From: Ignavibacteriae bacterium HGW-Ignavibacteriae-3 | GTDB taxonomy: Bacteria; Bacteroidota; Ignavibacteria; Ignavibacteriales; Melioribacteraceae | NCBI GenBank assembly: GCA_002839795.1 | Contig: PGYS01000015.1 | Coordinates: 1 to 36,909, forward strand | Direction: 5' to 3' | DNA length: 36,909 nucleotides | Shown: piece after piece, positions 249-22,996 of the stretch | Numbering within the stretch: the stretch's first letter is position 1 | Layout of the letters: each line of letters opens with the position of its first letter | Notes under the pieces: generated by a model | Told to the model about the DNA's origin: nothing | The model's database searches: none | What the model saw: the letters and a program-made list of their open reading frames with translations, nothing else | Translations under genes and position numbers: made by a program

Positions 249-272
249 TTTACTATTTACGGAGTGCGATTA

Positions 273-2690
273 ATGTATTCTTCTTCAAAAAAATTGTTTA
301 TAGGTAACTGCCTCTTTTTGTTTATTCTTTTTCTAAGTTCAAAGTCATTCGCGCAGGAATTTAACTGCGCCGATTGCCACGAGAACGTAATTCAAAAATC
401 GGTTCACAACGAAGTTATCGGCTGCCAGGATTGTCACGATGGGATAAAAGATGAGAGTCATGCCGAGAAGAAGAAATACACAAAAGTTAAATGTGAAAAC
501 TGCCATGAAGAGTACGCCAATTTAGTTAACAGCGATATTCATCATAGACTCAAAGGAAGAGTAAAGACTCCACCCGATTGTAAAAAATGCCATGGCACTC
601 ATGAAATAAAAACTCCGCCAAAAGAGAATAAATTAAAAGTGAAGGAATACTGTTCCAAGTGTCATACAAGCATGATTCTTGCCAATCCATACCACTCAAA
701 AGCAGTTGAGGGGAATAAATGTATAAGCTGTCACAAGCAAAATGGTTTTACTAAACTCAGTGAATCAGTTCACAAAAACCTGGAATGCGCAGATTGCCAC
801 AATTACATTTCTCATAATCTTACTAATCATTCCAAGAATGTTGTCGCCACGCAAAAAGCGGATTGCTATCTGTGCCATTCATCAATCGCCAAGGAACATA
901 GAGAAAGTATTCATGGCATTTCGTTATATGAAGGAATTGATGAAGCCGCAATGTGCTGGAACTGTCATGGTTCCCATGAAATTAAAAAAGTAAAGGATCA
1001 ATTAAGCCTCGTTTACCCCACAAACCTTGGAGCTACGTGCGGTAAATGTCATGACAACCCAAATCTTGTTAAGAAATTTTCATTCGGTGTTAAAAATCCC
1101 GGACTACTATATTCGACTTCTGTCCATGGCCAATTAGTAGCTAAGGGAAGTTTAAGTTCGGCAAACTGCAGTCTGTGTCACGGTGTCCACGATATTAAAA
1201 ACCGGGTTCAGCCGGGCTCTAAAATATCGTCATTTAATGTACCCGAAACCTGCGGGCAATGTCACCGGCAAATAGCTGATGAATATGAAAAATCAGTTCA
1301 TTGGATTCGTGCGAAAAAGGGAGTTCGCGAGTCTCCCGTTTGTAATGATTGCCACAATGAACATAGCATTCACGCTGTAAATACTCTCGACAAAAAAATA
1401 GAAGCTAAAAAACTTCAGCAGCGAACATGTATGATTTGCCATCAGGATCCGAAAATAGCTGAGCGATTCGGTGGAACCGGAAGCCAGGCTAAACAATACG
1501 AGGATAGTTATCATGGTCTGGCAGTCATGCGGGGTGATAAAGATGCCGCAATGTGCGTAGACTGCCACAGCATCCACAAAATTCTTCCCGAGAATAATCC
1601 TGAATCCACGGTTAGCCAGGCTAACATTACGGCAACGTGTAAAAAATGCCATCCGGAAGCAACTGATACATTCGCAAAAAGTTATTCTCACATGACCTTG
1701 GATCAGACAGCTTCCAAAATTGAGAGCATAGTAACTTTTATATATCAGTGGCTAATAATATTAGTCATTGGCGGAATGATCTTACATAATCTTCTGATTT
1801 TTGTTTTCGAAATAAAGAAAAAACGCCGTCACGAAAAGGGTGAAATTACAATACCGCGTTTTACGAAAAATGAAGTTATTCAGCATCTACTTCTTCTTAC
1901 TTCATTTATAATTCTTGCTGTAACGGGATTCGCACTCAAATATCACAGCAGCTGGTGGGCTGAACTCCTTCACATGTTTGGATTAAGCGAAACTGCCCGC
2001 CAGTATACGCATCGTGTCTCCGCGGTAGTGATGATTGTTGCCAGTCTCTACCACATCTATTATTTAGCCTTCACTGCTCGCGGAAGAGACTTGCTTAAAA
2101 ACCTCATCCCAAAATTTCACGATCTTACCGATGCGAGAGATAATATTCTGTACTATCTAAAGCTGAAAAAAGAGAAGCCAAAATTTGAAGCGTATGATTA
2201 CACGGAAAAAGCAGAATACTGGGCTCTTATCTGGGGTACTATAGTTATGGGAGTAACCGGTTTTATCCTATGGTTCCCTACTGTAGTTGGAGATTGGGCA
2301 CCGGTTTGGCTGATCAAAGTAAGTGAATTAATTCATTTTTATGAGGCCATTCTTGCGACACTTGCTATTCTTGTCTGGCATTGGTTCTTTGTAATTTTTC
2401 ATCCCAATGAATACCCCATGAGCTTAACCTGGATAGACGGAAAAATGTCGCTTCATAAATACCGTCATCATCATGAAAAGCACTTTAGAAGAGTGGTTCT
2501 GGACTGGAAAGAGTATAAAAAAGGAATTAAAGATCAGAATAAACTTAGCAACAGCACAAATCTTTTCACCTCTACATTGGAGAAGAACGGATTAAATCCC
2601 GATCTTATTATTCAGCACGAAATTGACAACGATCCGGAATTAAGAGTATGGCTGGAGGAAAAACTTGAGCCCAAGGTGGATAATGAGTAA
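273..2690 (+). CDS. 16-heme c-type / cytochrome b fusion, CbcL-like inner-membrane quinol oxidase
   Basis: An 805-residue protein with a signal peptide (hydrophobic to about residue 28, ending SFAQ). The periplasmic part, to about residue 480, has 16 CXXCH heme c motifs (CADCH, CQDCH ... CKKCH). The C-terminal part has about five membrane helices (roughly 488-510, 534-555, 577-600, 649-671, 686-710) with histidines in a cytochrome b561/formate-dehydrogenase-gamma-like arrangement. The same c-plus-b architecture occurs in Geobacter CbcL, a quinol-oxidising inner-membrane cytochrome of metal respiration with nine c hemes, so this is a longer relative or analogue. The ATG at 273 is chosen over the GTG at 264 because GGAG at 261-264 is correctly spaced for it. 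The inferred role is moving electrons from quinol to periplasmic cytochromes. The acceptor cannot be read from sequence. Confidence 0.85.
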   Translation: MYSSSKKLFIGNCLFLFILFLSSKSFAQEFNCADCHENVIQKSVHNEVIGCQDCHDGIKDESHAEKKKYTKVKCENCHEEYANLVNSDIHHRLKGRVKTPPDCKKCHGTHEIKTPPKENKLKVKEYCSKCHTSMILANPYHSKAVEGNKCISCHKQNGFTKLSESVHKNLECADCHNYISHNLTNHSKNVVATQKADCYLCHSSIAKEHRESIHGISLYEGIDEAAMCWNCHGSHEIKKVKDQLSLVYPTNLGATCGKCHDNPNLVKKFSFGVKNPGLLYSTSVHGQLVAKGSLSSANCSLCHGVHDIKNRVQPGSKISSFNVPETCGQCHRQIADEYEKSVHWIRAKKGVRESPVCNDCHNEHSIHAVNTLDKKIEAKKLQQRTCMICHQDPKIAERFGGTGSQAKQYEDSYHGLAVMRGDKDAAMCVDCHSIHKILPENNPESTVSQANITATCKKCHPEATDTFAKSYSHMTLDQTASKIESIVTFIYQWLIILVIGGMILHNLLIFVFEIKKKRRHEKGEITIPRFTKNEVIQHLLLLTSFIILAVTGFALKYHSSWWAELLHMFGLSETARQYTHRVSAVVMIVASLYHIYYLAFTARGRDLLKNLIPKFHDLTDARDNILYYLKLKKEKPKFEAYDYTEKAEYWALIWGTIVMGVTGFILWFPTVVGDWAPVWLIKVSELIHFYEAILATLAILVWHWFFVIFHPNEYPMSLTWIDGKMSLHKYRHHHEKHFRRVVLDWKEYKKGIKDQNKLSNSTNLFTSTLEKNGLNPDLIIQHEIDNDPELRVWLEEKLEPKVDNE

Positions 2691-2837
2691 ATAAGCCGGA
2701 TATTTAAATTAGAGTCGAATTAAGGAAGGTTGCCTATTTTACACAAATGGGCTATATTTAAATAAGATTAATAAGTTCTTTTATATATTTCACTGTAATC
2801 ATTATCATTCATAAAAATATTCCATGGAGGAATTAAA

Positions 2838-3362
2838 ATGAATTACAAAACAACTTTACTCACATTGATTATTGCTGCCTTTCTTGTTCTTCCCTCGAAT
2901 CTGAGAGCTCAGGCAAAATATGTCGGAACTAAATCATGCAGCATGTGCCATAAAACCGAAAAACAAGGACAGCAATTTAAAATTTGGCAGGACAGCAAAC
3001 ATTCACAAGCCTATAAAGCTCTATTAACTGCTAAGGCCGATGAGATCTCGGCAAAAAAAGGCGGAAAGAAAGCCGCTGAAAATCCAGAATGCTTGAAATG
3101 CCACGTCGGTGACGCATCATTAATTGCCTCAGCATTTAAGGAAGACGGAGTACAGTGCGAAACGTGTCATGGTGCCGGCTCAGAGTACAAGGCCATGAGC
3201 GTTATGAAAAACAAAGCTGAATCAATCAAAAAAGGCATGACCGAATTCAAAGACGTTGAAAAGTTTTGCACTACTTGTCATAATTCCAATAGCCCGACTT
3301 TCAAGGAATTCAAGTTTTCAGAAATGTTGAAAAAAATTGCTCACCCAACACCAAAAGGATAA
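2838..3362 (+). CDS. tetraheme cytochrome c554-like periplasmic carrier
   Basis: A 174-residue protein with a Sec signal peptide ending near residue 25 (LRAQA) and four CXXCH motifs: CSMCH, CLKCH, CETCH and CTTCH. The first motif sits in YVGTKSCSMCHK followed by a WQDSKHSQAY segment, the pattern of the cytochrome c554 family. A strong Shine-Dalgarno GGAGG lies just before the ATG. The barrel gene starts 21 bases after its stop, so it probably heads the operon running to 6903, and it lies 147 bases after the 16-heme gene. A soluble shuttle between the inner-membrane cytochrome and the outer-membrane conduit is the likely role. Nitrogen-cycle functions known for some c554 proteins are not supported by any neighbour here. 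Confidence 0.85.
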   Translation: MNYKTTLLTLIIAAFLVLPSNLRAQAKYVGTKSCSMCHKTEKQGQQFKIWQDSKHSQAYKALLTAKADEISAKKGGKKAAENPECLKCHVGDASLIASAFKEDGVQCETCHGAGSEYKAMSVMKNKAESIKKGMTEFKDVEKFCTTCHNSNSPTFKEFKFSEMLKKIAHPTPKG

Positions 3363-3383
3363 TCTTACTTCTTAGAGCTAAAA

Positions 3384-4652
3384 ATGAAAAAAATATTTTT
3401 GTTAGTATTGTTTTTAAGCCTGCCATTAATGATTTCTGCTCAGAATCTTAATGGCAGTATCTCTTCCTCATTTTACACATTTGAAAGATTTGATGATCTG
3501 AACACTTCCGACACATTCATCCGCAACTACGAAGCATTGTCTCTCAATTTTAATTACAATAAAGTTTCTCTCAGAACAAGATTAAATTTTGAAACAAATC
3601 TCGGCAACACGCTTGAGAGCGATCCGAGACTAAGATTTTACAATTTATTTCTTGAAGCACGGGACATTTTTGATGTATTCACAGTAAAATTGGGAAGACA
3701 GCCACTGTTTACGCCGGTTGGCGGCGGATTGTACGATGGTGTCAATCTAAAGTTCAGGTATTCCGGAGTTTCATTAACGGGATTTTACGGCGGGAACGTA
3801 CCGGCATACCAGAAGTTGAATATCACCAATGATTTTAAAAATGATTATGTACTGGGCGGAAAATTTGAAGTGAACTTTCTTAATCACTTTAATTTCGGAC
3901 TGAGCTACATCGATAAGAATTTCAAACCGATGGATTTCACTGCCTGGCGCCTCGATGGAAATTTAAATCTTATCCAGGTTCTCATAGAACAAAAATCCAA
4001 TCAGTATAAATTTATGACCGCGGAAGCATCGTATTTTCTGGACGGGAAAATTAATCTTGATACTCGCTATGAGTATGACGTCAATTATAAAACAACGTCA
4101 AAATTTGAGGTCAGCGGACGAGTTCAGGCAACCGGAGAATTGGGCGTTGATGTTTATTATAATTTCCGCGAACCGAAGATAAGGTATAACTCAATCTTTT
4201 CTGTTTTCGATTATGGAAACTCCCAGGAAATAGAAGGCGGAGTTGATTATAAATTCAGCAAGGATGTGACTGTTTTTGGTAAATACGGCTATGTGAAATA
4301 CAAAGACGAAAATTCCGGACGCATTAATTTAGGCACAACTACCAAGTACGGAACTTTAAGCTACCGCAGAACATTTGGATATGCCGGAGAACTCTACGTA
4401 ATATCATTTTACACGGGACATTCCTTCGCGGACGGATTTATAACCCCTTCCGTAGGTATTGCATTTACAAATTACAAATTATCCCCTGATGCCGAAGTGA
4501 ATAATATCACGACATTATTGGGCGGAATTAATCTGAGACCCGGGAAAGAGTTTTCGTTCGATCTGCAGGGTCAATATTTCAACAACAAAATTTACAAGAA
4601 TGATTTCAGAATCCTGTTCAAAGTAAATTACTGGTTCAATACTAATCTCTAG
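3384..4652 (+). CDS. outer-membrane beta-barrel, putative porin of a porin-cytochrome conduit
   Basis: A 422-residue protein with a signal peptide (residues 1-19, ending ISAQ). The rest is alternating polar and aromatic/aliphatic residues in short repeated strands with turns such as GGGLYDG and NDFKNDY, consistent with an outer-membrane barrel. There is no plug domain and no heme motif. The length is close to the porins of Geobacter porin-cytochrome complexes (about 400 residues) and much shorter than MtrB. It sits between a tetraheme and a 14-heme gene with gaps of 21 and 6 bases, which is the main argument that it sheathes a cytochrome wire. Sequence alone could also fit another porin. The barrel call is firm, the conduit role is inference. 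Confidence 0.75.
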   Translation: MKKIFLLVLFLSLPLMISAQNLNGSISSSFYTFERFDDLNTSDTFIRNYEALSLNFNYNKVSLRTRLNFETNLGNTLESDPRLRFYNLFLEARDIFDVFTVKLGRQPLFTPVGGGLYDGVNLKFRYSGVSLTGFYGGNVPAYQKLNITNDFKNDYVLGGKFEVNFLNHFNFGLSYIDKNFKPMDFTAWRLDGNLNLIQVLIEQKSNQYKFMTAEASYFLDGKINLDTRYEYDVNYKTTSKFEVSGRVQATGELGVDVYYNFREPKIRYNSIFSVFDYGNSQEIEGGVDYKFSKDVTVFGKYGYVKYKDENSGRINLGTTTKYGTLSYRRTFGYAGELYVISFYTGHSFADGFITPSVGIAFTNYKLSPDAEVNNITTLLGGINLRPGKEFSFDLQGQYFNNKIYKNDFRILFKVNYWFNTNL

Positions 4653-4658
4653 ATAATT

Positions 4659-5867
4659 ATGAAAATAAAATATTTTTATACTGCCTTAGCCCTTACTCTT
4701 ATTTGTTTTTTGACAATTGCGGCAATTAGCAAAGATGCACCGGGTCACGAAGGAGCAACGAACAAAGATATTATCAAATTCTCTCATAAGGTTCACAAAG
4801 AAGTTACTGATTGCGCATCCTGTCATACACTGGCCGGTGAAAGTACTTCACTTAACACCCGCCTTCTTCCCGAAAAATCAGTTTGTGCAACCTGCCATGA
4901 TGTGGATGATGATAAGAATTGCAACCTCTGCCATTACGATGAAAAATACGAACCGCTTCTAATGAAAAAAGCCGAATTAATATTCGATCATAAATTCCAT
5001 ACCGCCGATCAAAAAATGGCCTGTGAATCCTGTCATAAAGGATTGGGCGAGGTTGATTATAGTTTTGAGTCCATTACCGCAAAACCAGCGATGATTGTAT
5101 GCTATGATTGCCATAATGGAAATTCTGTCGCCGCCAATGTGTGCGAATCCTGCCATATTTCAACAGCGGGGCTTACTCCGCAGGATCATAAGCAGGTATC
5201 ATTCTTCAAAAATCACAAATTCAGCGCGTCAAGAGAAAATTCCCAGTGCCAGATGTGTCATGACAACACTTTCTGCGAATCATGTCATACTTCCACAACA
5301 ATGATCACAGAGAAAAACAGTGCGCGTGATTTTTATACCCCCTATTCCCCTCATAAATACACTGATAATACAAAACAGCAGGCCATAACCCGCGTGCATG
5401 ATTTGAATTACCAGTACACTCACGGAATTGAATTAAAGGGGAAAACGAACGAATGCCAGACATGTCATCAGCCTGAAGTATTCTGCGGTAAATGTCATGA
5501 TTCCAATTCAAAGGATTTTGCACTTTCCGGAAATATTCCAAAGTCTCATAAAGCTCCGAATTTTGTAACAATCGGCGTCGGAACGGGCGGCGGACAGCAC
5601 GCAGTGCTTGCAAGAAGAGACATTGAAAATTGTTCGTCATGCCACGATGTACAAGGTGCAGACCAAAACTGTATTCTATGCCACGTTGATAATGACGGAG
5701 TGAAAGGTACGAATCCAAAAACACATGCAAGAAATTTCGGACGCGATTTTGATAAGGGAGACTGGCATTCCGATCGCGGATCAGTTTGTTATTCATGCCA
5801 TACGGATGCCAATGCACGCCCAGGAGGAATTAAAGGGGTCGGTTTCTGCGGCTATTGTCATAACTAA
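4659..5867 (+). CDS. 14-heme periplasmic c-type cytochrome
   Basis: A 402-residue protein with a signal peptide (about 1-24, no convincing lipobox) and 14 CXXCH motifs spread to the last residues (CASCH, CATCH, CNLCH ... CGYCHN). Extra histidines (FSHKVHK, FDHKFH, HKFSAS) lie where distal ligands of bis-histidine hemes are expected. The gene starts 6 bases after the barrel stop, so the two are probably translationally coupled. In known porin-cytochrome complexes (OmaB/OmbB, MtrA/MtrB) the partner of the barrel is a periplasmic cytochrome of 8 to 10 hemes. This one is larger but is in the right place. Which side of the outer membrane it occupies cannot be proved from sequence. Confidence 0.85.
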   Translation: MKIKYFYTALALTLICFLTIAAISKDAPGHEGATNKDIIKFSHKVHKEVTDCASCHTLAGESTSLNTRLLPEKSVCATCHDVDDDKNCNLCHYDEKYEPLLMKKAELIFDHKFHTADQKMACESCHKGLGEVDYSFESITAKPAMIVCYDCHNGNSVAANVCESCHISTAGLTPQDHKQVSFFKNHKFSASRENSQCQMCHDNTFCESCHTSTTMITEKNSARDFYTPYSPHKYTDNTKQQAITRVHDLNYQYTHGIELKGKTNECQTCHQPEVFCGKCHDSNSKDFALSGNIPKSHKAPNFVTIGVGTGGGQHAVLARRDIENCSSCHDVQGADQNCILCHVDNDGVKGTNPKTHARNFGRDFDKGDWHSDRGSVCYSCHTDANARPGGIKGVGFCGYCHN

Positions 5868-5889
5868 AATTATAACTCTCGGATAGATT

Positions 5890-6903
5890 ATGAGATATAC
5901 AAAATTATATTTTACCTTTATCGTTGTAATGGGAATGCTTTCGTTTTCGTGCAGTGATTTACAGCAGGATATTACTGTTCCATCCAAGGTGAGTTTACAC
6001 GGTGTGGGTGTGTTAAATCCTTCTTCCGCATCTTATCACGGATTATCAGTAAAGGAAAAAAAGCTGGAAAGCTGCAGGCAATGTCACGCCTCCGATTTAA
6101 CCGGCGGCACTGCTTTTACTACCTGCAATACGTGCCATCCAGCACTGACCATTCATAACTCTAATATTAATAATCCGTCCTCAGCAGGATTTCACGGCAG
6201 ATATATTGCTTCAAAGAATTGGAGTATGAGTTCCTGCACAATGTGCCATGGAATAAATTATGCCGGCGGTGTTGCAAGTCCTTCATGTAATACTTGTCAT
6301 AAAAATGCCGGCGGTCCCGAAGCGTGCAATACCTGCCACGGCAGCTTTGCAAATCCTGCTTTAATAGCACCTCCCACTGATCTTAGCAGAAATATTGATG
6401 CAAAATTTCCCGGCGTGGGCGCTCACAATGCCCATTTATTCACAGCTAAAATCGGAGCCGTTGCATTTTGCAATGACTGCCATATCGTACCCGCAAGTTA
6501 TTCGGCAGCAGGTCATATTGACAATTCACCAAGGGCGGAACTTCTTTTCCCCAAAAAGAACAATTTTGAGACGGGAAATGCCTCTTACAATTATACCAGC
6601 TACACATGTTCCAATACATATTGCCATGGTGGATTTGCCTTCTTAAAATCAAACTCGCCATACGCGTTTGCCTACACTGCCGATAAGATAGAGGGAAATG
6701 TTAATCTTCCTGTCTGGAACAAGGTTGACGGAACTCAGATGGCCTGCGGCTCCTGCCACGGTCTTCCCCCGAAAGGGCATATGGATGCGAAACTTGAAAG
6801 TTGCGGTACGTGTCATCAGGGAATTGTAGATAAGACCGGAAAGATAATCGACGCGACAAAACATATGAACAGAAAAATAAATGTCTTTAATCTTGAGTAT
6901 TAA
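5890..6903 (+). CDS. 9-heme outer-membrane lipoprotein cytochrome with CX4CH motif
   Basis: A 337-residue lipoprotein with signal MLSFSC and lipid-bearing Cys21, a loose Bacteroidota-type lipobox. It has eight CXXCH motifs and one expanded CX4CH (CSNTYCH, residues 240-246). The segment from CSNTYCHGG through PVW to CGSCHGLPP matches the layout of the Geobacter CxxxxCH...CXXCH cytochrome family found in surface cytochromes. Residues 42-83 and 94-136 are an imperfect internal repeat built on NPSSA, HG, CxxCH, GG and CNTCH. It follows the 14-heme gene by 22 bases and is last before the terminator at 6920. The likely place is the outer-membrane surface, as terminal or penultimate reductase. The substrate is unknown. 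Confidence 0.83.
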   Translation: MRYTKLYFTFIVVMGMLSFSCSDLQQDITVPSKVSLHGVGVLNPSSASYHGLSVKEKKLESCRQCHASDLTGGTAFTTCNTCHPALTIHNSNINNPSSAGFHGRYIASKNWSMSSCTMCHGINYAGGVASPSCNTCHKNAGGPEACNTCHGSFANPALIAPPTDLSRNIDAKFPGVGAHNAHLFTAKIGAVAFCNDCHIVPASYSAAGHIDNSPRAELLFPKKNNFETGNASYNYTSYTCSNTYCHGGFAFLKSNSPYAFAYTADKIEGNVNLPVWNKVDGTQMACGSCHGLPPKGHMDAKLESCGTCHQGIVDKTGKIIDATKHMNRKINVFNLEY

Positions 6904-6919: not shown

Positions 6920-6945
6920 AAGCCGCTTTAGAGCGGCTTTTTTTT
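6920..6945 (+). terminator. rho-independent terminator of the conduit operon
   Basis: A perfect 8-bp stem, AAGCCGCT with AGCGGCTT around a TTAG loop, runs into an eight-base T tract 17 bases after the 9-heme gene stop. It separates the cytochrome operon from the regulator gene. Confidence 0.9.
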
Positions 6946-6954
6946 AAACTTTTT

Positions 6955-6979
6955 TGAAACATTATGAAACAATGAAACA
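6955..6979 (+). promoter_or_regulatory. three direct TGAAACA repeats before the sigma-54 activator
   Basis: TGAAACA occurs at 6955-6961, 6965-6971 and 6973-6979, ending two bases before the activator ATG, with a TGTTCC at 6913-6918 further up. The same half-site (TGRAACA in either orientation) recurs in the gap after the activator gene. This suggests the activator binds here and controls its own expression. The position over the ribosome-binding region favours repression, which is inference. Confidence 0.5.
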
Positions 6980-6981
6980 AA

Positions 6982-8316
6982 ATGTCCATAAGCGATAACT
7001 TAAAAGACCATATACTTGACTCGATTGCCGAAGGTGTTTTTACCGTAGACAAAGATTTTAAAATAAATTTTTTCAATAAAGCCGCAGAAAAAATTACCGG
7101 ATACAAACGCGACGAGGTGCTTGGAAATTTCTGCAAGAATGTTTTCCGCTCACAGGTATGCTATTCAAATTGTCCTATAGCTATAGTTTTAAGGACCCAG
7201 AATAATCTTTACGATTTTGAATCGGTGATAAAAACTTGTGTTGGAGATGAGAAAACTATTAAGCTCAATGCCGCGGTTCTTTACAACGATTTAAATGTGC
7301 CGGTCGGCGGGATTGTATCATTCAGGAATCTTTACGAGTTCGAAGCGATAGGGATTGATTTACAAAAAGAAACTTTCTTCAACGGTATAATCGGCCACAG
7401 CCGTCAGATGAAGGAAATTTTTGAATTGATAGAGGAGATTTCGGAGACCGATGCACCGGTGTTCATTCAAGGTGAATCCGGAACAGGAAAAGAACTTGTA
7501 GCTAACGCAATTCAAAAATTGTCTAACAGAAAAAATAATCCGTTTGTTAAAATTAATTGTTCGATATTTCCTTCAAACCTTCTCGCCAGTGAATTATTCG
7601 GACACGTTAAAGGTGCGTTCACGGATGCATTTAAAGACCGCCCCGGAAGATTCGAAGTAGCAGAGAAGGGTACTATTTTTCTGGATGAAGTTGCAGAGAT
7701 GCCTCTTCAGATGCAGATTCAGCTGCTTCGTGTTCTTCAGGAGGGAACTTTTGAAAGAGTCGGTGAATCAATCACCCGCAGAGCCGACGTTCGCGTTATA
7801 GCGGCAACGAATATTAATATAAAAGACGCACTTAAAAAGGGCCAGTTCAGGGAGGATCTGTTTTACCGGTTGAATGTCATTCCTATCGTGATTCCCCCGC
7901 TAAGGGAAAGACCGGAAGATATTATTCCCCTGGTGAAATATTTTTTAAATAAGTTTTCTCTTTTTTATAAAAAACAGATAACCGAATTGGAAGAAGGCGC
8001 ATTCGAGATTTTGTTGAATTACCAATGGCCCGGTAACATTCGCGAACTGGAAAATGCAATTGAGTATGCTTTCGTAAGAACAATTAAGAAAAACATTATA
8101 GAATCAGCTAAGCTCCCCGTGAGCATTATCGAAGGAGTAAAAAGTCCCCCCGTAAAATCAACCTTAACATTTTTCCCGGTCTCAAAAGAACGTGCAGATC
8201 TTCTTTTCCTTCTTGAAAAAAATCTATGGAACAAGAGCAAAGTTGCAAAGGAGCTTAACATAGGACGTACCACTCTATGGCGTAGGATGAAGAAATTAGG
8301 GTTAACGAACCAATAA
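6982..8316 (+). CDS. sigma-54-dependent activator: PAS, AAA+, Fis-type HTH
   Basis: A 444-residue bacterial enhancer-binding protein. A PAS domain spans about 10-115. The AAA+ domain has Walker A GESGTGKE at 164-171, GAFTDA (a variant of GAFTGA) at 211-216, Walker B TIFLDE at 231-236 and the arginine region FREDLFYR at 289-296. A helix-turn-helix lies at about 415-440 ([18 protein letters not shown]). It has no receiver domain, so it is a direct sensor rather than a response regulator. The PAS domain holds Cys51, Cys60, Cys64 and Cys86, a possible redox or metal site. It sits between the two cytochrome transcription units, and a -24/-12 promoter lies 156 bases after its stop, so the 11-heme/rhodanese operon is the obvious target. 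Confidence 0.93.
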
Positions 8317-8317
8317 C

Positions 8318-8431
8318 TGTTCCTGTGTTCCACATTACCGCGAAACATGTTCCACTCCAAAATCCGAGTCAATTCTTCGAAATTAACAATTATGCTTGCC
8401 GCGTTATAGCAACCTGAAACAAACTGTTCCA
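8318..8431 (+). promoter_or_regulatory. cluster of upstream activator half-sites (TGTTCCA / TGAAACA)
   Basis: Half-sites are at 8318-8323 (TGTTCC), 8326-8332 (TGTTCCA), 8342-8354 (GAAACATGTTCCA, a near-palindrome) and 8415-8431 (TGAAACA, three bases, TGTTCCA). They lie about 65 to 180 bases upstream of the predicted transcription start, the usual distance for sigma-54 enhancer sites, and match the repeats ahead of the activator gene. The spacing between half-sites varies, so the exact operator unit is unsure. Confidence 0.6.
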
Positions 8432-8471
8432 AATTGAAAAGAAAAAGGTCATTTAGGTGCGATTTTAATAA

Positions 8472-8487
8472 TGGCATTTAAGTTGCA
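8472..8487 (+). promoter_or_regulatory. sigma-54 (-24/-12) promoter for the 11-heme/rhodanese operon
   Basis: TGGCATTTAAGTTGCA fits the consensus TGGCAC-N5-TTGCA with one mismatch and exact GG-to-GC spacing. It lies 48 bases before the 11-heme gene, giving a leader of about 37 bases. Location directly after a sigma-54 activator gene and its putative enhancer sites supports the call. Confidence 0.78.
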
Positions 8488-8534
8488 ACTGTAGCCCGAC
8501 AGATAAATTTTAATTCAATTACCGGACAAATAAA

Positions 8535-9908
8535 ATGAAAATGCGATTCATAATACCGTTATTATGTGTATCCGCGCTGTTTGCATTCATAAGCTGCGCT
8601 GACAAAGATACCGAAGATCTAAATGAACCCTCCCCAACGATTGAGAAATCCATCGCTTCCTGCGAGGGCTGCCATACAAATTATACTACATTAAAAAAAG
8701 TTTATTCCCCTGATCCCGTTGAAAGCGAAGGCGCCGGGTGCGGCGGCGAAACGCCACACTTCGAGCCTTATGACCGCGTTTATCTCGGCGGAGACGGATA
8801 TCAGACTTTCAAAAACAATATTCATGGAAAAATGCCTTGTGTGGCTTGCCATAACGGAGTAGACGGCACAAGCGATAAGTCAAAGGCACACTCAGGTAAT
8901 TTTATTAAAAAACCATCCTCGCGAAGTGATGCTAAATGCGCAAGCTGCCACCCGGACGTTTACAATCGCACAAAGAACAGTATTCATGAACAAGGATGGG
9001 GACAAAAATCTATGGTGGTTCTCCGATCCGGTTTATCAAATATTCCGAGCGGATTCGATCAGCTGTCCTCGGTTATGAAAGAGGGATACGATAAAAACTG
9101 CGGCAAATGCCATGCTTCCTGCGGTGACTGCCATGTGAATAGACCAAAGGCGGGAGGCGGCGGTTTGGCAAACGGGCATGCATTTACAAAAACTCCGGAC
9201 ATGCGAAATGTTTGCGTTACGTGCCATGTAAGCAGAGGTGGTCATGCCTACTTTGGCCAGGCTGCAGGAACGGTACCAGATGTGCATCTTACAAAAAAGC
9301 AATTTACGTGTCTGAATTGTCACACACAAAATGAAATTCATGGCGACGGTAATATATATGATCAACGTTATAAAATGGGAATGCTTCCAAAATGCCAGAA
9401 TTGCCATACAGGCATTGAAAAAAGCAACAATTATCATCAGGCACATTTAAATTCATTTTCATGCAATACCTGCCATTCACAGGATTATAATAATTGCGGA
9501 AGCTGCCATATAGGCGGCGAAGGTGCGCGAATACCTTCCTATCAGGGATTCAAAATTGGAATGAATCCAATTCCTGAAACAAAGACATTCAAGTATGCAG
9601 TATTAAGACAATCTCTTACGGCCCCTGACAGCTGGAAAAACTATGGTGTGGCAACACTCCCTAAATTTGATGCTAAACCAACATATAAATACTCCACACC
9701 GCACAACATCATTCGATGGACATCACGCACAACGGTTGGTACCGGCAAAGCTTGCTATGACGCATGCCATGTTATAAAGAACACTGACGGAACTTACAGA
9801 AATAAACAACTCTATTTATTCAAGAGCGATCTACAAAGCTGGGAGTTAAGTGCCACGCAATCCATTACCGTTGACGGCAAACTTCCCTCCAAATGGGATG
9901 TTAAATAA
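8535..9908 (+). CDS. 11-heme outer-membrane lipoprotein cytochrome
   Basis: A 457-residue lipoprotein with signal ending FAFISC and lipid Cys21, followed by an acidic ADKDTED stretch like Bacteroidota surface-export signals. It has ten CXXCH motifs, two almost fused (CGKCHASCGDCH), and one expanded CX3CH (CYDACH, Cys407-His412). After the last CXXCH, near residue 330, there is a long heme-poor region containing only the CX3CH, possibly a substrate or docking part. It is controlled by the sigma-54 promoter at 8472, separately from the conduit operon, and the rhodanese lipoprotein follows after 61 bases. A conditionally expressed surface reductase is the best guess. I cannot assign it to a characterised family. 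Confidence 0.83.
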   Translation: MKMRFIIPLLCVSALFAFISCADKDTEDLNEPSPTIEKSIASCEGCHTNYTTLKKVYSPDPVESEGAGCGGETPHFEPYDRVYLGGDGYQTFKNNIHGKMPCVACHNGVDGTSDKSKAHSGNFIKKPSSRSDAKCASCHPDVYNRTKNSIHEQGWGQKSMVVLRSGLSNIPSGFDQLSSVMKEGYDKNCGKCHASCGDCHVNRPKAGGGGLANGHAFTKTPDMRNVCVTCHVSRGGHAYFGQAAGTVPDVHLTKKQFTCLNCHTQNEIHGDGNIYDQRYKMGMLPKCQNCHTGIEKSNNYHQAHLNSFSCNTCHSQDYNNCGSCHIGGEGARIPSYQGFKIGMNPIPETKTFKYAVLRQSLTAPDSWKNYGVATLPKFDAKPTYKYSTPHNIIRWTSRTTVGTGKACYDACHVIKNTDGTYRNKQLYLFKSDLQSWELSATQSITVDGKLPSKWDVK

Positions 9909-9969: not shown

Positions 9970-10989
9970 ATGAAGCTTAGAAATCTTTTTTATCTGATGT
10001 TAGTACTTCCCTTTTTATTCATTTATACGGGATGCAGCAAGACTGAGGATAGCCCTGTCGAGCCGACTGCGGTTAATGAAGCACAGGTTCTTGCCGAGTA
10101 CTTAGAAGCTAACGGCGATTTTTTGAATTTAACTGCTCCCGCAGTAATTACAGCCACAGATGTAAATTCACTGCGCTTAACAAATCCTACAAAATTGCTG
10201 GTGATTGATATCCGCAGCGCTTCTGACTTTGAAACTAAAGGTCATATCGAAGGAGCCAAACAAGTTGACCTAAAAAATATTGTTACATACATGCAGACCG
10301 CAAATTCGACGCAATATGAAAAAGTTGTGATTGCATGCTATTCAGGACAGACCGCTGGTTATGCCGTATCACTTCTAAGACTGTTGGGCTATACAAATGT
10401 ATTTTCACTTAAATGGGGAATGTCTTCCTGGAATGCATCCTGCGCATCATCCTGGGCAGCTCCGAGTATCGGAAACAATTATACAAATTTCGTTACTACT
10501 TCAACACCTAAAGCCGCCGCCGGAAGTTTACCTGTCCTGAATACCGGAAAGAAAACCGGTAAAGAAATCCTTGAGGCCAGAATAAGTACACTTTTGGCAA
10601 CTGCCAGCGCGAGCCCATTTGACGATATCAAAGTTGCATGGGGCACGGTAACTGGCGCGCTTTCAAATTATTATATTGTCAATTACTGGTCACAGACAGA
10701 CTACGATAAAGGTCATCTTCCCGGCGCAATTCAGTATACCCCAAAAGCTGACTTAAAATTATCAGCTAATTTGAAAACATTACCGACTAACAAGACTATT
10801 GCACTATATTGCTACACGGGACAAACTTCAGCACAGGTAGTTACGATCCTTAAAATTTTGGGTTACGATGCAAAATCTTTATTATTCGGTGTTAACAGCA
10901 TGAACTATGATTGGATGGCCACCGCAGGAATTTCAAATCAATTTAAATCAACAGAAATAAACGCTTTTCCTTTCGTAACCGGTAAGTAA
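9970..10989 (+). CDS. lipoprotein with two rhodanese domains
   Basis: A 339-residue lipoprotein (IYTGC, lipid Cys22, then SKTED). Two rhodanese-like domains follow: the first about 60-160 with active-site loop CYSGQT (Cys123), the second about 195-320 with CYTGQT (Cys281). Both catalytic cysteines are present. The DIR motif of the first domain is replaced by NYW in the second. The frame is open upstream to 9850, but the ATG at 9970 has GGAGTT six bases before it and starts the signal peptide. It is probably co-transcribed with the 11-heme gene and ends at a strong terminator. Rhodaneses move sulfane sulfur, so a link to polysulfide or thiosulfate is possible. Many rhodanese-fold proteins have other roles. 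Confidence 0.88.
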   Translation: MKLRNLFYLMLVLPFLFIYTGCSKTEDSPVEPTAVNEAQVLAEYLEANGDFLNLTAPAVITATDVNSLRLTNPTKLLVIDIRSASDFETKGHIEGAKQVDLKNIVTYMQTANSTQYEKVVIACYSGQTAGYAVSLLRLLGYTNVFSLKWGMSSWNASCASSWAAPSIGNNYTNFVTTSTPKAAAGSLPVLNTGKKTGKEILEARISTLLATASASPFDDIKVAWGTVTGALSNYYIVNYWSQTDYDKGHLPGAIQYTPKADLKLSANLKTLPTNKTIALYCYTGQTSAQVVTILKILGYDAKSLLFGVNSMNYDWMATAGISNQFKSTEINAFPFVTGK

Positions 10990-11063: not shown

Positions 11064-11525
11064 ATGAAAGAGATGTTGGGTAATCAGTATTTCATGGCGC
11101 GCAATTATCCCGCGGCCCAAGGCGAATTTGAAGAATGCCTGGTCAAGAACCCGAAAAACAAATCAGTAAGGAAAAAATTAATTGTCTGTTATACACAGAC
11201 AGGGAGAATTAAGGAAGCGATAAAATTTTTTAACGAATTGATTGCCGAGGATATACAATTTATAATCAACACCAATCCTGTTACAGACGATTGCCCCTGC
11301 CCTGAGCTGGTTGCCAAAATTGAGGGTCAGGGAATATTCAACGAGGAGTCATTGGATTATTGCATCGTTCTGGGCATAATCTGGTTGTATTGCGATATCT
11401 CAAAATCATTAGAATATTTTATAAAAGCCAATGAGAAAGCGCCCGATGATGAGACGCTGGCATTTACATTAAATACATTGGAACGTTATATAGATAGCCA
11501 CCCCATAAATAAACACATTGTTTAA
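11064..11525 (+). CDS. small TPR-repeat protein, function unknown
   Basis: A 153-residue soluble protein without a signal peptide. Residues about 5-60 form helix pairs with TPR spacing (NQYFMARNYPAAQGEFEECL and VCYTQTGRIKEAIKFF), and a further TPR-like pair lies near 100-145 (LGIIWLYCDISKSLEYFIKA). A CPCPE cluster in the middle is not a heme motif. It stands alone between the terminator at 10998 and the heme operon, 142 bases before the HemX-like gene. Probably a protein-interaction scaffold. No specific role can be read. Confidence 0.7.
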   Translation: MKEMLGNQYFMARNYPAAQGEFEECLVKNPKNKSVRKKLIVCYTQTGRIKEAIKFFNELIAEDIQFIINTNPVTDDCPCPELVAKIEGQGIFNEESLDYCIVLGIIWLYCDISKSLEYFIKANEKAPDDETLAFTLNTLERYIDSHPINKHIV

Positions 11526-11667
11526 TTCAGCTTATTAGCCCCGATTTTCAACATATTACCTCATTTTCCCTGCTTTAGAAAGATTTTGGAGCCGTTTTTT
11601 CATAATTTTGGGTTCACAAAATCGGATGTTTTTGATCCGTGAAGTAACAATTTAATTAAGAGTGAAG

Positions 11668-12492
11668 ATGCTTCAATCAATTTATCTCTTTAATATACTT
11701 TTGCCGGTATTTTATTTTTTGGTTTTCATTATCTACGGATATGACTTCTATCAGGAAAATAAGACCGTAAATAATTCAAAGCGAATCATATTATTTATAA
11801 CGCTGCTGCTGCACACTTTTTTCCTGGTCTCCAGAACAATAGAATATAATCACCCTCCTATCACGAACAAATTTGAGATTTTTTCAATTATATCTTTCTC
11901 TATTGGTTTTTCCTACTTTGTACTTGAACTTCTGACCGATATCAGAGGCACAGGTACATTCATAATTTTCTTTTCATTTCTGTTTCAGATAATCTCATCA
12001 CTTTTTGTTGAGCATACATATATAGTGCCCGAAGTTTTGAGAAACCGTCTGCTGGGGCTTCATGTTATTAGTGCGCTTTTAGGTTATTCCGGAATTACTA
12101 TCTCCGCTGTTTATGGTTTATTATATCTGCTGCTCTACAAAAACCTGAAATCGAACAAATTCGGATTGATTTTTAACCGGCTGCCTAATCTGGAAATTTT
12201 GGAGAAACTAAGTTTTTATTCGGCAGTCATCGGATTTGTTCTCTTAACTTTTGCCATTGTGATTGGAATAATCTGGCTTCCAAGCGCGTTTCCGGAATTC
12301 TCCTACTATGACCCGAAGCTTATAGGAACCTTTATAGTCTGGCTGATTTATGGAATCGGCATAGTGAATAAATTTTTGGAGAAATTGTACGGAAGAAAAG
12401 TAATACTTTATTCTTTATTTGGTTTCATTGTTGCCATTATGTCTCTTATAATCACGAATACGTTAGCAAAGACGTTTCACTCGTTTTATTGA
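11668..12492 (+). CDS. HemX/CcsA-like integral membrane protein
   Basis: A 274-residue protein with about eight membrane helices. The order and conserved histidines (LLHTFF near residue 48, LGLHVIS near 128) fit the CcsA/HemX family of cytochrome c assembly proteins, and its place directly before hemA is where hemX sits in Bacillus and relatives. The tryptophan-rich heme-handling loop of true CcsA (WGWDP type) is degraded to SYYDPKLIGT, so heme ligation may be lost or altered. A GTG at 11662 is in frame; the ATG at 11668 is equally likely. HemA starts 10 bases downstream. In Bacillus HemX lowers GtrR (HemA) level; a like role here is inference. Confidence 0.75.
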   Translation: MLQSIYLFNILLPVFYFLVFIIYGYDFYQENKTVNNSKRIILFITLLLHTFFLVSRTIEYNHPPITNKFEIFSIISFSIGFSYFVLELLTDIRGTGTFIIFFSFLFQIISSLFVEHTYIVPEVLRNRLLGLHVISALLGYSGITISAVYGLLYLLLYKNLKSNKFGLIFNRLPNLEILEKLSFYSAVIGFVLLTFAIVIGIIWLPSAFPEFSYYDPKLIGTFIVWLIYGIGIVNKFLEKLYGRKVILYSLFGFIVAIMSLIITNTLAKTFHSFY

Positions 12493-12502
12493 AAGTTTTA
12501 AA

Positions 12503-13828
12503 ATGAATTTAGTCGGTATATCTATAAATCATAATACATCCCCTCTCGAACTTCGCGAGGCGGTTCATCTGAGCCGCAGTGATATTGTCGAATTCATACC
12601 GCTTTTGAAAAAAAAATATTTTTCTGAAGGAGTAGTAATTTCCACCTGCAACAGAACGGAGATTTTCGGTTTTCCGGAGAGTTCAGGGCTTGATCCCGAA
12701 CCGCTTATGGAAGTACTGATGGAATTCAAATCCGGTGCGGATATAAAACCCCAACACATTAAAAGATACTTTTCATGCGGTGCAGTTAAACATTTATTCG
12801 CAGTAGCTTCAGGAATCGATTCTCTCATCATCGGAGACAGTCAGATTCTCGGCCAGGTTAAAGAGGCGTTTGAGATATCTGAAGATCTTAACTTTGCAGG
12901 TTCCGTCCTTAGGAGGATTTTTGATACGGCGACTCGTGTAGGTAAGCGGGCAATTAAAGAAACAACTATAGGTGAAGGCGCCGTAACAGTTAGTTACGCC
13001 GCAGTCCAGGTCGTTGAAAAAATATTTGCGAATCTTGAGCGCAAATCTGCTCTTATAATCGGAGCCGGAGAAACCGGCGAACTTGCAGCGGTTCATTTGC
13101 ATGATAAAGGCATAGGTAAAATCGCAATTTCAAACAGATCAGTAGACAGGGCCGAAAAATTGGCCGGCAAAGTCCACGGCGAGATTGTGCCGTTTCAACT
13201 CCTTGGCGAACATCTTCATAATTACGATATTATAATCAGTGCGACCAGCGCGGAAAAACTTATAGTTACATTTGAAAATGTAAGCTCCGCAATGAAAAAA
13301 AGGAGAGGGTCTCCGGTAGTTTTAATGGATATTGCTGTTCCCCGTGATATTGATCCCGAAGTAAAAAAAATTGATAATGTTTTCTATCATGATATGGATT
13401 CTCTAAAGATTATTGTTGGGCAGAATGTGCAGAAGCGTAAAGATCAGATTCCGCTTGTCGAGAAAATAATTATGGAAGAACTTATAGGATTTTTCGGCTG
13501 GTATAATACACTGGACGTTGTTCCGACCATTAAAACAATGAGATCATTTTTCGAAGAAATAAGGAAAGATGAGCTTGAAAAGATCAGAAATAAGGTTAGC
13601 GATGAAGATTATGTTAAAATTGAAGATATGACACGGAGGATGATCGGCAGGCTGCTTCATAATCCGACGGTTAAATTAAGGGAGTTTGCGGAAACAGGGG
13701 CGAATATAAACGACGTCACAACCAACACAATGATTTTAAAAGAACTATTCAATCTGGATCATCCATCGGACAACGGCGATGATACCGGCAGTAAAATAAA
13801 TTGCAAGGAAGAACTTGACAAAAAATAA
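12503..13828 (+). CDS. hemA: glutamyl-tRNA reductase
   Basis: A 441-residue enzyme reducing glutamyl-tRNA(Glu) to glutamate-1-semialdehyde with NADPH, the first committed step of C5 heme synthesis. The catalytic cysteine is Cys49 in STCNRTEIF. The substrate motif GDSQILGQVK and the NADPH-binding LIIGAGETGELA follow in the usual order, with a helical dimerisation tail from about 320. Length is normal for the family. It overlaps hemC by 14 bases and is separated from the HemX-like gene by 10, so it is the first enzyme gene of a tight operon. Confidence 0.97.
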   Translation: MNLVGISINHNTSPLELREAVHLSRSDIVEFIPLLKKKYFSEGVVISTCNRTEIFGFPESSGLDPEPLMEVLMEFKSGADIKPQHIKRYFSCGAVKHLFAVASGIDSLIIGDSQILGQVKEAFEISEDLNFAGSVLRRIFDTATRVGKRAIKETTIGEGAVTVSYAAVQVVEKIFANLERKSALIIGAGETGELAAVHLHDKGIGKIAISNRSVDRAEKLAGKVHGEIVPFQLLGEHLHNYDIIISATSAEKLIVTFENVSSAMKKRRGSPVVLMDIAVPRDIDPEVKKIDNVFYHDMDSLKIIVGQNVQKRKDQIPLVEKIIMEELIGFFGWYNTLDVVPTIKTMRSFFEEIRKDELEKIRNKVSDEDYVKIEDMTRRMIGRLLHNPTVKLREFAETGANINDVTTNTMILKELFNLDHPSDNGDDTGSKINCKEELDKK

Positions 13829-14759
13829 ACTCGTAATCGGATCACGCGGAAGCGAACTCGCGCTATGGCAGGCCAAATTTATCAAGAAAGAACTTGAGAG
13901 AAAAAATAAAAATCTTTCTGTCGAGATTAAGATTATAAATACTAAAGGCGATAAAATTCTTGATGTTGCTCTTTCAAAGATCGGAGATAAAGGACTCTTT
14001 ACCAAAGAGCTTGAAACTGAATTGCTGAAAGGTACGATTGATCTCGCGGTTCATAGTCTTAAAGATCTTCAGACAGAAATTCCCAATGGATTGAAACTTG
14101 CCGCGGTAACAAAACGGCACGCGGTGGAAGATGTATTAATTGCCCGTAAAAAAGGCGTAAAGATCAGTAATTTGCCCGTTAATGCGGTTGTTGCTACGGG
14201 CTCGCTCAGAAGGAGATCTCAATTGCTTCATCTCCGCCCGGACATTAAAGTCGAAGAGCTTAGAGGCAATGTGCCTACACGGATAAGAAAATTTAAGGAC
14301 TCTAAGTGGGATGCGATTATATTAGCCCGTGCCGGCGTTGAGAGACTGAAACTCAATAAATATATTTCAAGTATTATCAAAACTGCCGAGATTTTACCCG
14401 CAGTCGGTCAGGGCGCATTAGGCATTGAGATCAGAGAAGACAATAAGCGTGCTGAAAAAGTTTTAAAATCTATTGATCACATAAAAACGTTTACAGCTGT
14501 CCGCGCTGAGCGTGCGCTCTTGAAAGCACTTGAAGGAGGATGCCAGGTTCCGATCGGTGCCTACGCGGAGGTAAAACCAAACGGATTATATCTTGAAGCA
14601 GTGGTTGGCTCTGTTGACGGTTCAATTACATTCAGGAAAAAATTATGCGGTACGAAAACCAATCCTGAAAAACTTGGACAAAAATTAGCAAAGGACCTTT
14701 TGAAAGCGGGTGCAGATTCTGTGCTAAAAGATGTTTATAACAGTGTGCGTTCAAAGTGA
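13815..14759 (+). CDS. hemC: hydroxymethylbilane synthase (porphobilinogen deaminase)
   Basis: A 314-residue enzyme joining four porphobilinogens into hydroxymethylbilane. Seen: the N-terminal IGSRGSELALWQ, the catalytic Asp84 in HSLKD, the arginine cluster GSLRRRSQ, and Cys243 in EGGCQVPIGAY, which carries the dipyrromethane cofactor. Translation must start at TTG 13815, inside the end of hemA, because there is no ATG before the conserved N-terminus; AAGGAAG lies just upstream. It ends in a GTGA overlap with hemD. Confidence 0.97.
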   Translation: MTKNKLVIGSRGSELALWQAKFIKKELERKNKNLSVEIKIINTKGDKILDVALSKIGDKGLFTKELETELLKGTIDLAVHSLKDLQTEIPNGLKLAAVTKRHAVEDVLIARKKGVKISNLPVNAVVATGSLRRRSQLLHLRPDIKVEELRGNVPTRIRKFKDSKWDAIILARAGVERLKLNKYISSIIKTAEILPAVGQGALGIEIREDNKRAEKVLKSIDHIKTFTAVRAERALLKALEGGCQVPIGAYAEVKPNGLYLEAVVGSVDGSITFRKKLCGTKTNPEKLGQKLAKDLLKAGADSVLKDVYNSVRSK

Positions 14760-15541
14760 ACTTGCTGATAAATAAAACAATATTAATCACCAAGAGCGAA
14801 TCGGATGCTAAAAATAATCTCGATCTTTTGATAAATGAAGGCGCGGAAATAATTTATTGTCCGACGATTAAAATAATACCGGCAGTAAATTCTCCGGAAC
14901 TGGACGATGCTTTGATGATGTTTAATAATTTTAATTATCTGATATTCACGTCATCTAATGCCGTTGATGTCTTTACGGCTGTCGCAAGGGAAAGGAAGAT
15001 CAATTTATCAAGAATAAAAGTTGCTGCTGTCGGCATAAGTACGGCTGAAAAGTGTGAGGCCAGTGGAATAACAGTTGATATTTTACCGGATGAATTCAGC
15101 TCCAGCGGATTGATTGATAAGTTTTTAGAATTTGATCTGACCGGCAAAAAAATACTAATCCCCGGCTCTTCCTTCTCACGCAGTGAATTAAGTGAGGGTC
15201 TTAGAGAGCTTGGTGCGGAAGTGTATTCGGTTCCGATTTATGATGTTGCCACAAATGATATCGGCAGCTTAAAAAATATACACAAGAAGATTCAGAGGAA
15301 ACATCCGAACTTATTCGTTTTTACCAGTCCTTCTTCTTTTTACGGATTTCTAAAAATTATGAGTGTCGCTGATACAGATAAATATTTTTTATCAAGTATT
15401 ATTTGCTCAATCGGTTCAACAACGGAAAGCGCAGTCAGAGAAAAAGGACTTTCTGTTCACATAGTACCACAAGTATTCTCGCTGCATGGAGTTTCTGAAG
15501 CGATAATAAATTATTATAAACTTACTGCCAACATGGCTTAA
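14756..15541 (+). CDS. hemD: uroporphyrinogen-III synthase
   Basis: A 261-residue protein of the HemD fold, which closes hydroxymethylbilane with inversion of ring D. The family is divergent; seen here are the N-terminal KTILITKSE, the TSSNAV loop near residue 65, ILIPGSSFSRSEL in the middle and FTSPSSFYGF in the C-terminal half. The start is GTG 14756, overlapping the hemC stop by four bases. Position between hemC and hemE makes the assignment secure despite low conservation. Confidence 0.93.
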   Translation: MNLLINKTILITKSESDAKNNLDLLINEGAEIIYCPTIKIIPAVNSPELDDALMMFNNFNYLIFTSSNAVDVFTAVARERKINLSRIKVAAVGISTAEKCEASGITVDILPDEFSSSGLIDKFLEFDLTGKKILIPGSSFSRSELSEGLRELGAEVYSVPIYDVATNDIGSLKNIHKKIQRKHPNLFVFTSPSSFYGFLKIMSVADTDKYFLSSIICSIGSTTESAVREKGLSVHIVPQVFSLHGVSEAIINYYKLTANMA

Positions 15542-15552
15542 TTGGAGGATTC

Positions 15553-16599
15553 TTGACCAAATTAAAAAACGATTTGTTTCTTAGAGCTTGCAAGGGAAAA
15601 CCCGTTGAATACACGCCCATTTGGATAATGCGCCAGGCGGGCAGATATCTGCCTGAGTACCGTGCGGTCCGGAAAAAATCAGATTTTATATCAATGTGCA
15701 AAACACCGGAACTTGCCGCTGAAGTAACAATTCAGCCGGTGGATCTTATCGGGGTTGACGCGGCTATTATCTTCTCCGATATTTTAGTTATACCCGAGGC
15801 AATGGGAATGCATCTTGAAATGATCGAAAGTAAAGGACCAAAACTGCATAATCCTATACGATCAATGGATGGCATCAACAAGCTAAAAACTATTGACCCC
15901 TTCGAGGACTTGAAATATGTTCTTGACGCTGTTCGTTTAACAAAAAAGGAATTAAACGGACGTGTTCCTCTAATAGGTTTTGCCGGCTCTCCCTGGACTC
16001 TTATGACCTATATGGTTGAGGGTGGCGGTACAAAAAGTTTTTCTGAAATTAAAAAATTTATTTACAATCACCCGATGGCGGCTCATCTTCTGTTAGACAA
16101 AATTGCAGATACAGTTGCCGATTACCTTTCCGCTAAAATTGAAGCCGGGGCAAACGCTGTCCAGATTTTTGATACATGGGGCGGAATACTTTCTCCGACT
16201 GACTTTGAAGAATTTTCACTCAGGTACATTAAAAAGATCGTTTCAAATATCAGAAGAAAAGATGAGCCTGTAATTGTATTTGCAAAAGGCGTACATTACA
16301 AATTAGATGAACTCGCGGACTGCGGAGCAGATGTTATTGGGCTGGATTGGACGATGGAAATAGGGAAGGTTAGGAATAAGATCGGTGATAAGGTTGCATT
16401 ACAGGGGAACCTGGATCCGACAGTTTTATATGCTGATAAAGAAAAAATCAGAAATGAGGCAGTTAGAGTTCTAAAATCATTCGGCAAACATACAGGTCAT
16501 ATTTTCAATCTCGGTCATGGAATTCTGCCGGACGTTCCGCCGGAAAATGCGAAGTTTTTAGTGGATGTAGTGAGAGAAGAAAGTAAAAAATTTCACTGA
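15553..16599 (+). CDS. hemE: uroporphyrinogen decarboxylase
   Basis: A 348-residue enzyme removing four carboxyl groups from uroporphyrinogen III to give coproporphyrinogen III. The signature IWIMRQAGRYLPEYR lies at about residue 23, with GFAGSPWTL, FDTWGG and the C-terminal NLGHGILPDVP also present. The start is TTG 15553, four bases after GGAGG; no ATG precedes the conserved N-terminus. It lies 11 bases after hemD. The operon is interrupted after it by a decayed gene. Confidence 0.97.
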   Translation: MTKLKNDLFLRACKGKPVEYTPIWIMRQAGRYLPEYRAVRKKSDFISMCKTPELAAEVTIQPVDLIGVDAAIIFSDILVIPEAMGMHLEMIESKGPKLHNPIRSMDGINKLKTIDPFEDLKYVLDAVRLTKKELNGRVPLIGFAGSPWTLMTYMVEGGGTKSFSEIKKFIYNHPMAAHLLLDKIADTVADYLSAKIEAGANAVQIFDTWGGILSPTDFEEFSLRYIKKIVSNIRRKDEPVIVFAKGVHYKLDELADCGADVIGLDWTMEIGKVRNKIGDKVALQGNLDPTVLYADKEKIRNEAVRVLKSFGKHTGHIFNLGHGILPDVPPENAKFLVDVVREESKKFH

Positions 16600-16630
16600 A
16601 AGTAATATTATAAGAAAGGAATACTTTTGA

Positions 16631-16831: not shown

Positions 16832-16926
16832 CAACTTTTAATTTTATTAAATATATGTCAACTGAATAGAAGCATTCTTAGTTTTTGAGCGAAGATTCAT
16901 TTCTTCCTCTGATAATTGGAGTAATA

Positions 16927-18303: not shown

Positions 18304-18325
18304 TGGATTAAGAAAGGAACCTCAT

Positions 18326-19279: not shown

Positions 19280-19344
19280 CTCTGTATCCGATCAGAATAA
19301 CGATGACCATACTTGATTTGAATAATTACTTTGTGGAGTTATAA

Positions 19345-21450: not shown

Positions 21451-21514
21451 CCTTATGCGGGAATTATGATTTATATTTATCCGGTTTTAAATTATTCTTT
21501 ATCTAAAAACTAAA

Positions 21515-22983: not shown

Positions 22984-22996
22984 GCACGGAGAAAAT

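Follow-up and report, generated by a model that had tools for sequence, protein, structure and literature searches.

The sigma-54 activator gene at positions 6982 to 8316 of the window (the whole stretch of 36,909 nucleotides analyzed here, from Ignavibacteriae bacterium HGW-Ignavibacteriae-3) very probably drives the adjacent cytochrome/rhodanese operon, through predicted enhancer dyads and a predicted sigma-54 promoter in the gap between the two. The evidence comprises the arrangement of the sites, the presence of sigma-54 in the genome, and the conservation of the control region among relatives approached from both the activator and the cytochrome side.

Control region and regulatory protein

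The activator gene (plus strand) encodes a predicted one-component bacterial enhancer-binding protein (bEBP) and is followed on the same strand by genes for a multiheme c-type cytochrome lipoprotein (8535 to 9908), a double-rhodanese-domain lipoprotein (9970 to 10989), and a small TPR protein (11064 to 11525). For the rhodanese gene, a mechanically called GTG start at 9850 was rejected in favor of 9970. Upstream of the activator (264 to 6903), the gene set named the main conduit in the original prediction encodes a 16-CXXCH/cytochrome b561 fusion, a 4-heme cytochrome, a weak porin match, and 14- and 8-heme cytochromes. Directly downstream of the TPR gene (11662 to 23980), a cytochrome c assembly gene is accompanied by a nearly complete heme biosynthesis cluster (GlutR, HemC, HemD, HemE, HemN-like, ferrochelatase, amine-oxidase-like, and ALAD).

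The gap between the activator stop and the cytochrome start is 218 bp long and contains four TGRAACA half-sites, at 8326 and 8348 on the minus strand, 8415 on the plus strand, and 8425 on the minus strand. Four perfect half-sites were not obtained in any of 2,000 dinucleotide shuffles of the gap, nor four within 120 bp in any of 200 shuffles of the window. Over its full length the window contains 22 matches where 13.4 were expected, a number reached by 1 of 100 shuffles. The predicted distal UAS cluster (8318 to 8354, about −180 to −144 relative to the predicted start) consists of an imperfect direct repeat, TGTTCC-TG-TGTTCCA, followed by a dyad, CGAAACATGTTCCA. The predicted proximal UAS dyad, TGAAACAAACTGTTCCA (8415 to 8431), begins 57 bp 5′ of the TGG of the −24 element. 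The predicted −24/−12 promoter, TGGCATTTAAGTTGCA (8472 to 8487, plus strand), has the exact GG-N10-GC spacing that had been claimed for it; the GC at 8485 to 8486 would place the start near 8497 to 8498, in line with the predicted start near 8498. TGGCATTTAAGTTGCA is the top-scoring −24/−12 site on both strands of the 36.9-kb window under our own weighting, and the only one-mismatch match when mismatches are simply counted. The observation of half-sites and promoter holds up and clearly exceeds chance expectation.

The activator carries an AAA+ sigma-54 interaction domain (PF00158, E = 7e-69, residues 136 to 302), a C-terminal Fis-type helix-turn-helix (HTH; PF02954, E = 2.8e-10), and a PAS domain; no receiver domain match was found, and the protein is therefore regarded as a one-component regulator. 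Its best NCBIfam match is PrdR (NF041552, residues 7 to 438), an identity rejected at 352.3 bits against a curated cut-off of 795 bits. Absence of rpoN was named beforehand as an observation that would speak against the circuit, and the genome does encode one rpoN (a single Sigma54_DBD match, C27). It also encodes 12 sigma-54 AAA+ activators with clear scores, and five more matches are weak.

We infer that the neighboring activator binds the dyads at 8318 to 8354 and 8415 to 8431 and opens the promoter. Bound there, it would contact RNA polymerase-sigma-54 waiting at 8472 to 8487, and its hydrolysis of ATP would open the promoter of the predicted cytochrome-rhodanese(-TPR) operon, which would be silent until the PAS domain, with its conserved CX8CX3C, receives a signal.

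The region before the activator is organized differently. A terminator-like hairpin with a T run (6920 to 6939, plus strand) appears to end the conduit operon; one such element against a shuffle mean of 2.2 is weak alone, and comparable GC-rich hairpins followed by a T run can be seen at the matching place in many relatives. The hairpin and the activator ATG are only about 37 bp apart, and this space is filled by three direct TGAAACA half-sites on the plus strand (6955 to 6979; at 6955, 6965, and 6973). The original prediction placed the same half-sites on both sides of the activator. They are indeed present on both, but as three direct repeats on the 5′ side and as inverted dyads on the 3′ side, and the 5′ ones occur in a minority of relatives only. 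Half-sites in any form lie close before the activator in only 13 of 42 other loci, among them L049, L051, L099, L103, and L105 with direct repeats comparable to those of the window, and L059, L097, L098, L102, L108, and L111 with other arrangements; autoregulation is therefore a lineage trait at best. The repeats at the start codon suggest that autoregulation may have been added in the sublineage of the window. If transcription from the conduit operon runs through the terminator, the activator would be coupled to that operon; a promoter that overlaps the repeats would make it autoregulated. The short distance between hairpin and ATG leaves the activator without an evident promoter of its own, which counts against the preferred reading.

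Conservation among relatives of the activator and the cytochrome

Searches with the activator, covering 57 relatives and 294 genomes drawn from the class, yielded 43 loci in 41 genomes (the window, 27 further stretches, and 15 new loci), taken from the best matches with weaker paralogues left out. These loci are related by descent and share genomes with the 80-locus cytochrome set described below, so the counts are not independent. Conservation within the gap establishes the presence and wiring of the predicted promoter and of the activator-specific enhancers. A −24/−12 site lies about 130 to 170 bp past the activator stop in 40 of the 43 loci, with half-sites 5′ of the promoter. The strict pattern TGG[CT]A-N6-[TC]TG was found in the gap of 24 of the first 28 loci, compared with about 0.3 expected from shuffles; the misses were L056, with its long gap, and L066, L070, and L074, in which the site is present but the ORF call begins 5′ of it. 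The best score was at least 15.2 in 40 of 43 gaps. In two of the remaining loci (L065 and L101), the gap extends past the scored 260 bp and the site falls beyond that stretch, and for the third (L056), a site was seen in the corresponding record L145. Aligned on TGG, the sites of 42 loci (without L056) have invariant GG and TG, an invariance that is partly due to selection since the site was picked by best score in each locus; mean information over all columns was about 0.3 to 0.4 bit. Half-sites in TGAAAC-type loci cluster at −44 to −59 and −118 to −166 from TGG, the proximal ones with peaks at −55 to −59 and −44 to −48. The putative control region is thus conserved within a gap that otherwise shows little conservation. 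In L059 (also L198; genome G024), the enhancer-plus-promoter block is doubled in tandem 5′ of the cytochrome.

Walker A and FLDE are present in all 43 activator rows, and the sigma-54 contact loop reads GAFTDA in 39 (including the window), GAFTGA in 2, and GAYTDA in 1, with none found in 1. The prevalence of GAFTDA rather than GAFTGA speaks against the preferred reading; some variants of the GAFTGA motif are reported as functional, and GAFTDA is not named among them in the available part of that report (PMC6615313). An rpoN gene was found in 39 of the 41 genomes with an activator orthologue and was not detected in G019 (86% complete) and G028 (99% complete), which also counts against the proposed circuit. 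The activator of G028 (L073) sits on the longest branch of the tree, and its cytochrome is unlinked.

Targets 3′ of the activator vary. The window and most TGAAAC-type loci have the cytochrome, rhodanese, and TPR genes, and in most loci without a cytochrome of the window type, a TPR homologue is the first gene past the activator. It is accompanied by a 7- or 8-heme cytochrome in L060, L066, L070, L072, L074, L108, and L111 (that of L060, the only member of this group scanned, bears a T9SS tail), by a C_GCAxxG_C_C/split-Soret-like cytochrome with a T9SS tail in the scanned loci L067 and L061 (other loci of this kind were assigned by length, two CXXCH, and similarity), and by a 15-CXXCH protein in L058. 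Two of 28 TGAAAC-type loci have a class-V aminotransferase/cysteine-desulfurase-like target (L050 and, from partial sequence, L053). The proposed role as a switchable terminal acceptor module would therefore fit the window and most relatives, but not these two loci.

A search of named genomes with the cytochrome alignment returned 147 relatives, and the analysis used the best 80, which belong to Melioribacteraceae, other Ignavibacteria, Bacteroidales, Kapabacteria, Desulfobacterota, and a Planctomycetota MAG. The activator was adjacent in 23 of the 80 loci and absent in 47 with at least 1,700 bp seen, while five loci with less than 400 bp upstream were dropped and five were not classed. Stygiobacter electus (L117), a cultivated relative, shares the layout of the window. 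At least three half-sites were present in 23 of 23 loci with an adjacent activator, compared with 2 of 47 without, and a −24/−12 promoter in 23 of 23, compared with 6 of 47. Reversed motifs gave no comparable contrast. Given the shared ancestry and the overlap with the 43 loci, no weight is placed on a p-value for these counts. In L142, the dyads and promoter are kept behind unrelated upstream genes, with no activator within 2.8 kb; the sites persist without an activator next door and are therefore not a mere by-product of the end of the activator gene. With rpoN in the genome, the expected domain set in the activator, and site and promoter conservation that tracks activator presence, the prediction of a self-contained sigma-54 circuit appears sound. 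In two Desulfatitalea loci (L151 and L169), a divergent activator, 34 to 38% identical, faces the same cytochrome, with a near-perfect −24/−12 element, TGGCAC-N5-TTGC; this arrangement looks like an independent recruitment of sigma-54 control.

Enhancer specificity and competing explanations

The recognition helix of the activator reads (I/V/M)GR(T/S)TLWR in 28 loci and (V/I)(D/N)R(T/S)T in 15. Most half-sites are TGRAAC in 27 of 28 loci of the Gly group and TGCAAC in 14 of 15 loci of the Asp/Asn group, so that the two traits match in 41 of 43 loci. The exceptions are L056, for which no sites were counted because its long gap led to the choice of a false promoter, and L075 (Asn), which has both types in a ratio of 3 to 2. 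In a tree built without the HTH, the Gly rows form one group (support 99/97) and both traits change once; because there is a single change (one independent pair), the association cannot reach significance. Striking as the coupling is, it reflects one event only, and we keep it as a hypothesis. A tentative and somewhat doubtful extension is that these are insulated one-operon switches, in which a change at one helix position, between Gly and Asp/Asn before R-T-T, re-tuned the TGAAAC enhancer to TGCAAC and thereby lets two paralogous circuits coexist in one cell without cross-talk. Both activator types occur about 11 kb apart on one contig of G007 (L050 and L074) and together in G012 (L056 and L075); under the re-tuned-enhancer reading, L075 would be a surviving intermediate. 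A paralogous split with different half-sites is a natural experiment for studying how enhancer-binding proteins change their DNA specificity.

Further targets were sought in the genome of the window. TGRAACN{3,6}GTTYCA occurs at 6 places, compared with 2 for the reversed control, and TGRAACAN{0,25}TGTTYCA at 6 places. The original prediction had proposed looking for half-site pairs near other −24/−12 promoters; the seven other dyads examined (five from the former pattern and two from the latter, with C141 and C220:72396 left out) all lie inside ORFs, with no −24/−12 element within 260 bp. No second target was found, and the system therefore looks like a single-operon switch. Likewise, a search of 26 genomes for GTTTCA-N25-55-TGGCA-N6-TTG gave no second shared target among the 30 loci looked at: all 12 with at least four half-sites were activator-target loci by coordinates, and the other 18 had one or two.

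With a dozen clear sigma-54 activators in the cell, and with L142 retaining the sites away from any adjacent activator, another of these proteins could read the dyads and the −24/−12 element while the neighbor regulates something else. We consider this improbable, because half-site type follows the recognition-helix group of the adjacent activator and because, where that activator is absent, the same target lacks the sites in 45 of 47 loci. Even less credible is that the half-sites are an operator for sigma-70-type control, the −24/−12 match being due to chance and the gene being transcribed from another promoter. The −24/−12 consensus is indeed short, and 4.4% of single-gap shuffles reach 15.2. 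However, almost every locus has the site at a similar distance past the activator stop, with its GG and TG unchanged, and no sigma-70-like site was found in 8317 to 8534, although the phylum may use other promoter types.

Related systems and the nature of the signal

Local enhancer-binding protein circuits beside cytochrome operons have been predicted before, and in Geobacter extracellular electron transfer is known to come under sigma-54 control. DVU3142-Ohc of Desulfovibrio vulgaris, a circuit predicted by comparative genomics, likewise combines an enhancer-binding protein gene with a neighboring multiheme cytochrome operon equipped with a sigma-54 promoter and binding sites for the protein (PMC4641369). 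According to the available part of that source, DVU3142 is divergent from an octaheme/inner-membrane complex, whereas the activator of the window lies upstream in tandem, with sites 3′ of its own stop, and its target pairs a lipoprotein cytochrome with a rhodanese. Sigma-54 also reaches extracellular electron transfer genes in the RpoN regulon of Geobacter sulfurreducens, often with enhancer-binding proteins near their targets, but in a different phylum, and no dedicated one-operon cytochrome switch of the present layout was found in the accessible portion of the report (PMC2725144). Among the Geobacter porin-cytochrome clusters extABCD, extEFG, and extHIJKL, the last includes a rhodanese-family lipoprotein, ExtH; as far as the available text goes, it is flanked by LysR- or TetR-type regulators, and ExtH replaces an extracellular cytochrome, whereas the rhodanese of the window stands beside its cytochrome (PMC6148476). 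PrdR and other enhancer-binding proteins of Clostridiales likewise control local operons through multiple UAS, given in the part of the source at hand as TGT-N10-12-ACA, unlike the TGRAAC-N3-5-GTTYCA type seen here (PMC6615313).

No description of regulators of these genes in Ignavibacteria was found in the PMC literature searched; the available part of a multi-omics paper on Melioribacter roseus (PMC5492636) does not mention rhodanese, multiheme, or decaheme and names Sigma only as a supplier of reagents, and the accessible sections of PMC12545173 and PMC12316311 contain nothing on the system. The unusually well conserved family of activator-cytochrome circuits is thus new, with no earlier description in that literature. 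For Ignavibacteria, in which little is known of the acceptors of surface cytochromes, it supplies a defined and testable control element, and whatever induces the switch should indicate the natural substrate of the cytochrome-rhodanese pair found across several phyla.

The cytochrome was originally described as an 11-heme lipoprotein. The lipobox and the 11 motifs are present, but as 10 CXXCH and one CXXXCH rather than 11 CXXCH; as the CXXXCH (C407-H412) is invariant in 39 alignment rows, the term 11-heme is defensible. The lipobox Cys21 is invariant in nine rows and present in at least 90% of the 39-row alignment. Its lipobox and hemes would place the protein outside the cell, probably reducing an acceptor. 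In profile comparison, it resembles 1SP3, which we take to be an octaheme tetrathionate reductase, over residues 176 to 308 (E = 5.4e-4, weak), and alignment of a cytochrome model of mediocre quality (mean pLDDT, 66) with VIA-align gave Z = 7.5 at an rmsd of 5.1 over 243 aligned residues (next row, 2.8). Foldseek with the same model returned no match at E ≤ 0.001, and a single-sequence PDB search with the cytochrome no match.

In the PAS domain, Cys51 and Cys64 of the CX8CX3C motif are conserved in 43 of 43 rows and Cys60 in 41 of 43, which suggests thiol, sulfur-species, or redox sensing; a cue of this kind would be the most likely signal. An appreciable possibility, short of an even chance, is that the regulon is primarily sulfur- or thiol-related and not respiratory, with the cytochrome-rhodanese pair handling extracellular sulfur species that the PAS cysteines sense. 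This reading concerns the signal and is compatible with the proposed wiring by the neighboring activator. It is favored by the rhodanese directly 3′ of the cytochrome in all 80 loci (the best 80 of 147 relatives), by the cysteine-desulfurase-like targets, by the genes beside the activator in L061, and by the likeness to 1SP3. Against it, the ligand is deduced from context, the Z and E values are weak and multiheme proteins yield spurious CXXCH alignments, and the position 3′ of a porin-cytochrome conduit in many relatives favors respiration.

The cytochrome and the double-rhodanese lipoprotein form a constant pair in these 80 loci (L112 to L191), which span several phyla and mostly lack the activator. 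In L061 (1 to 2699), a TGCAAC-type activator lies 3′ of an ArsP permease gene, two thioredoxin-like genes, and a DsbD-type gene; this setting hints that the signal of that activator may be arsenic/thiol redox.
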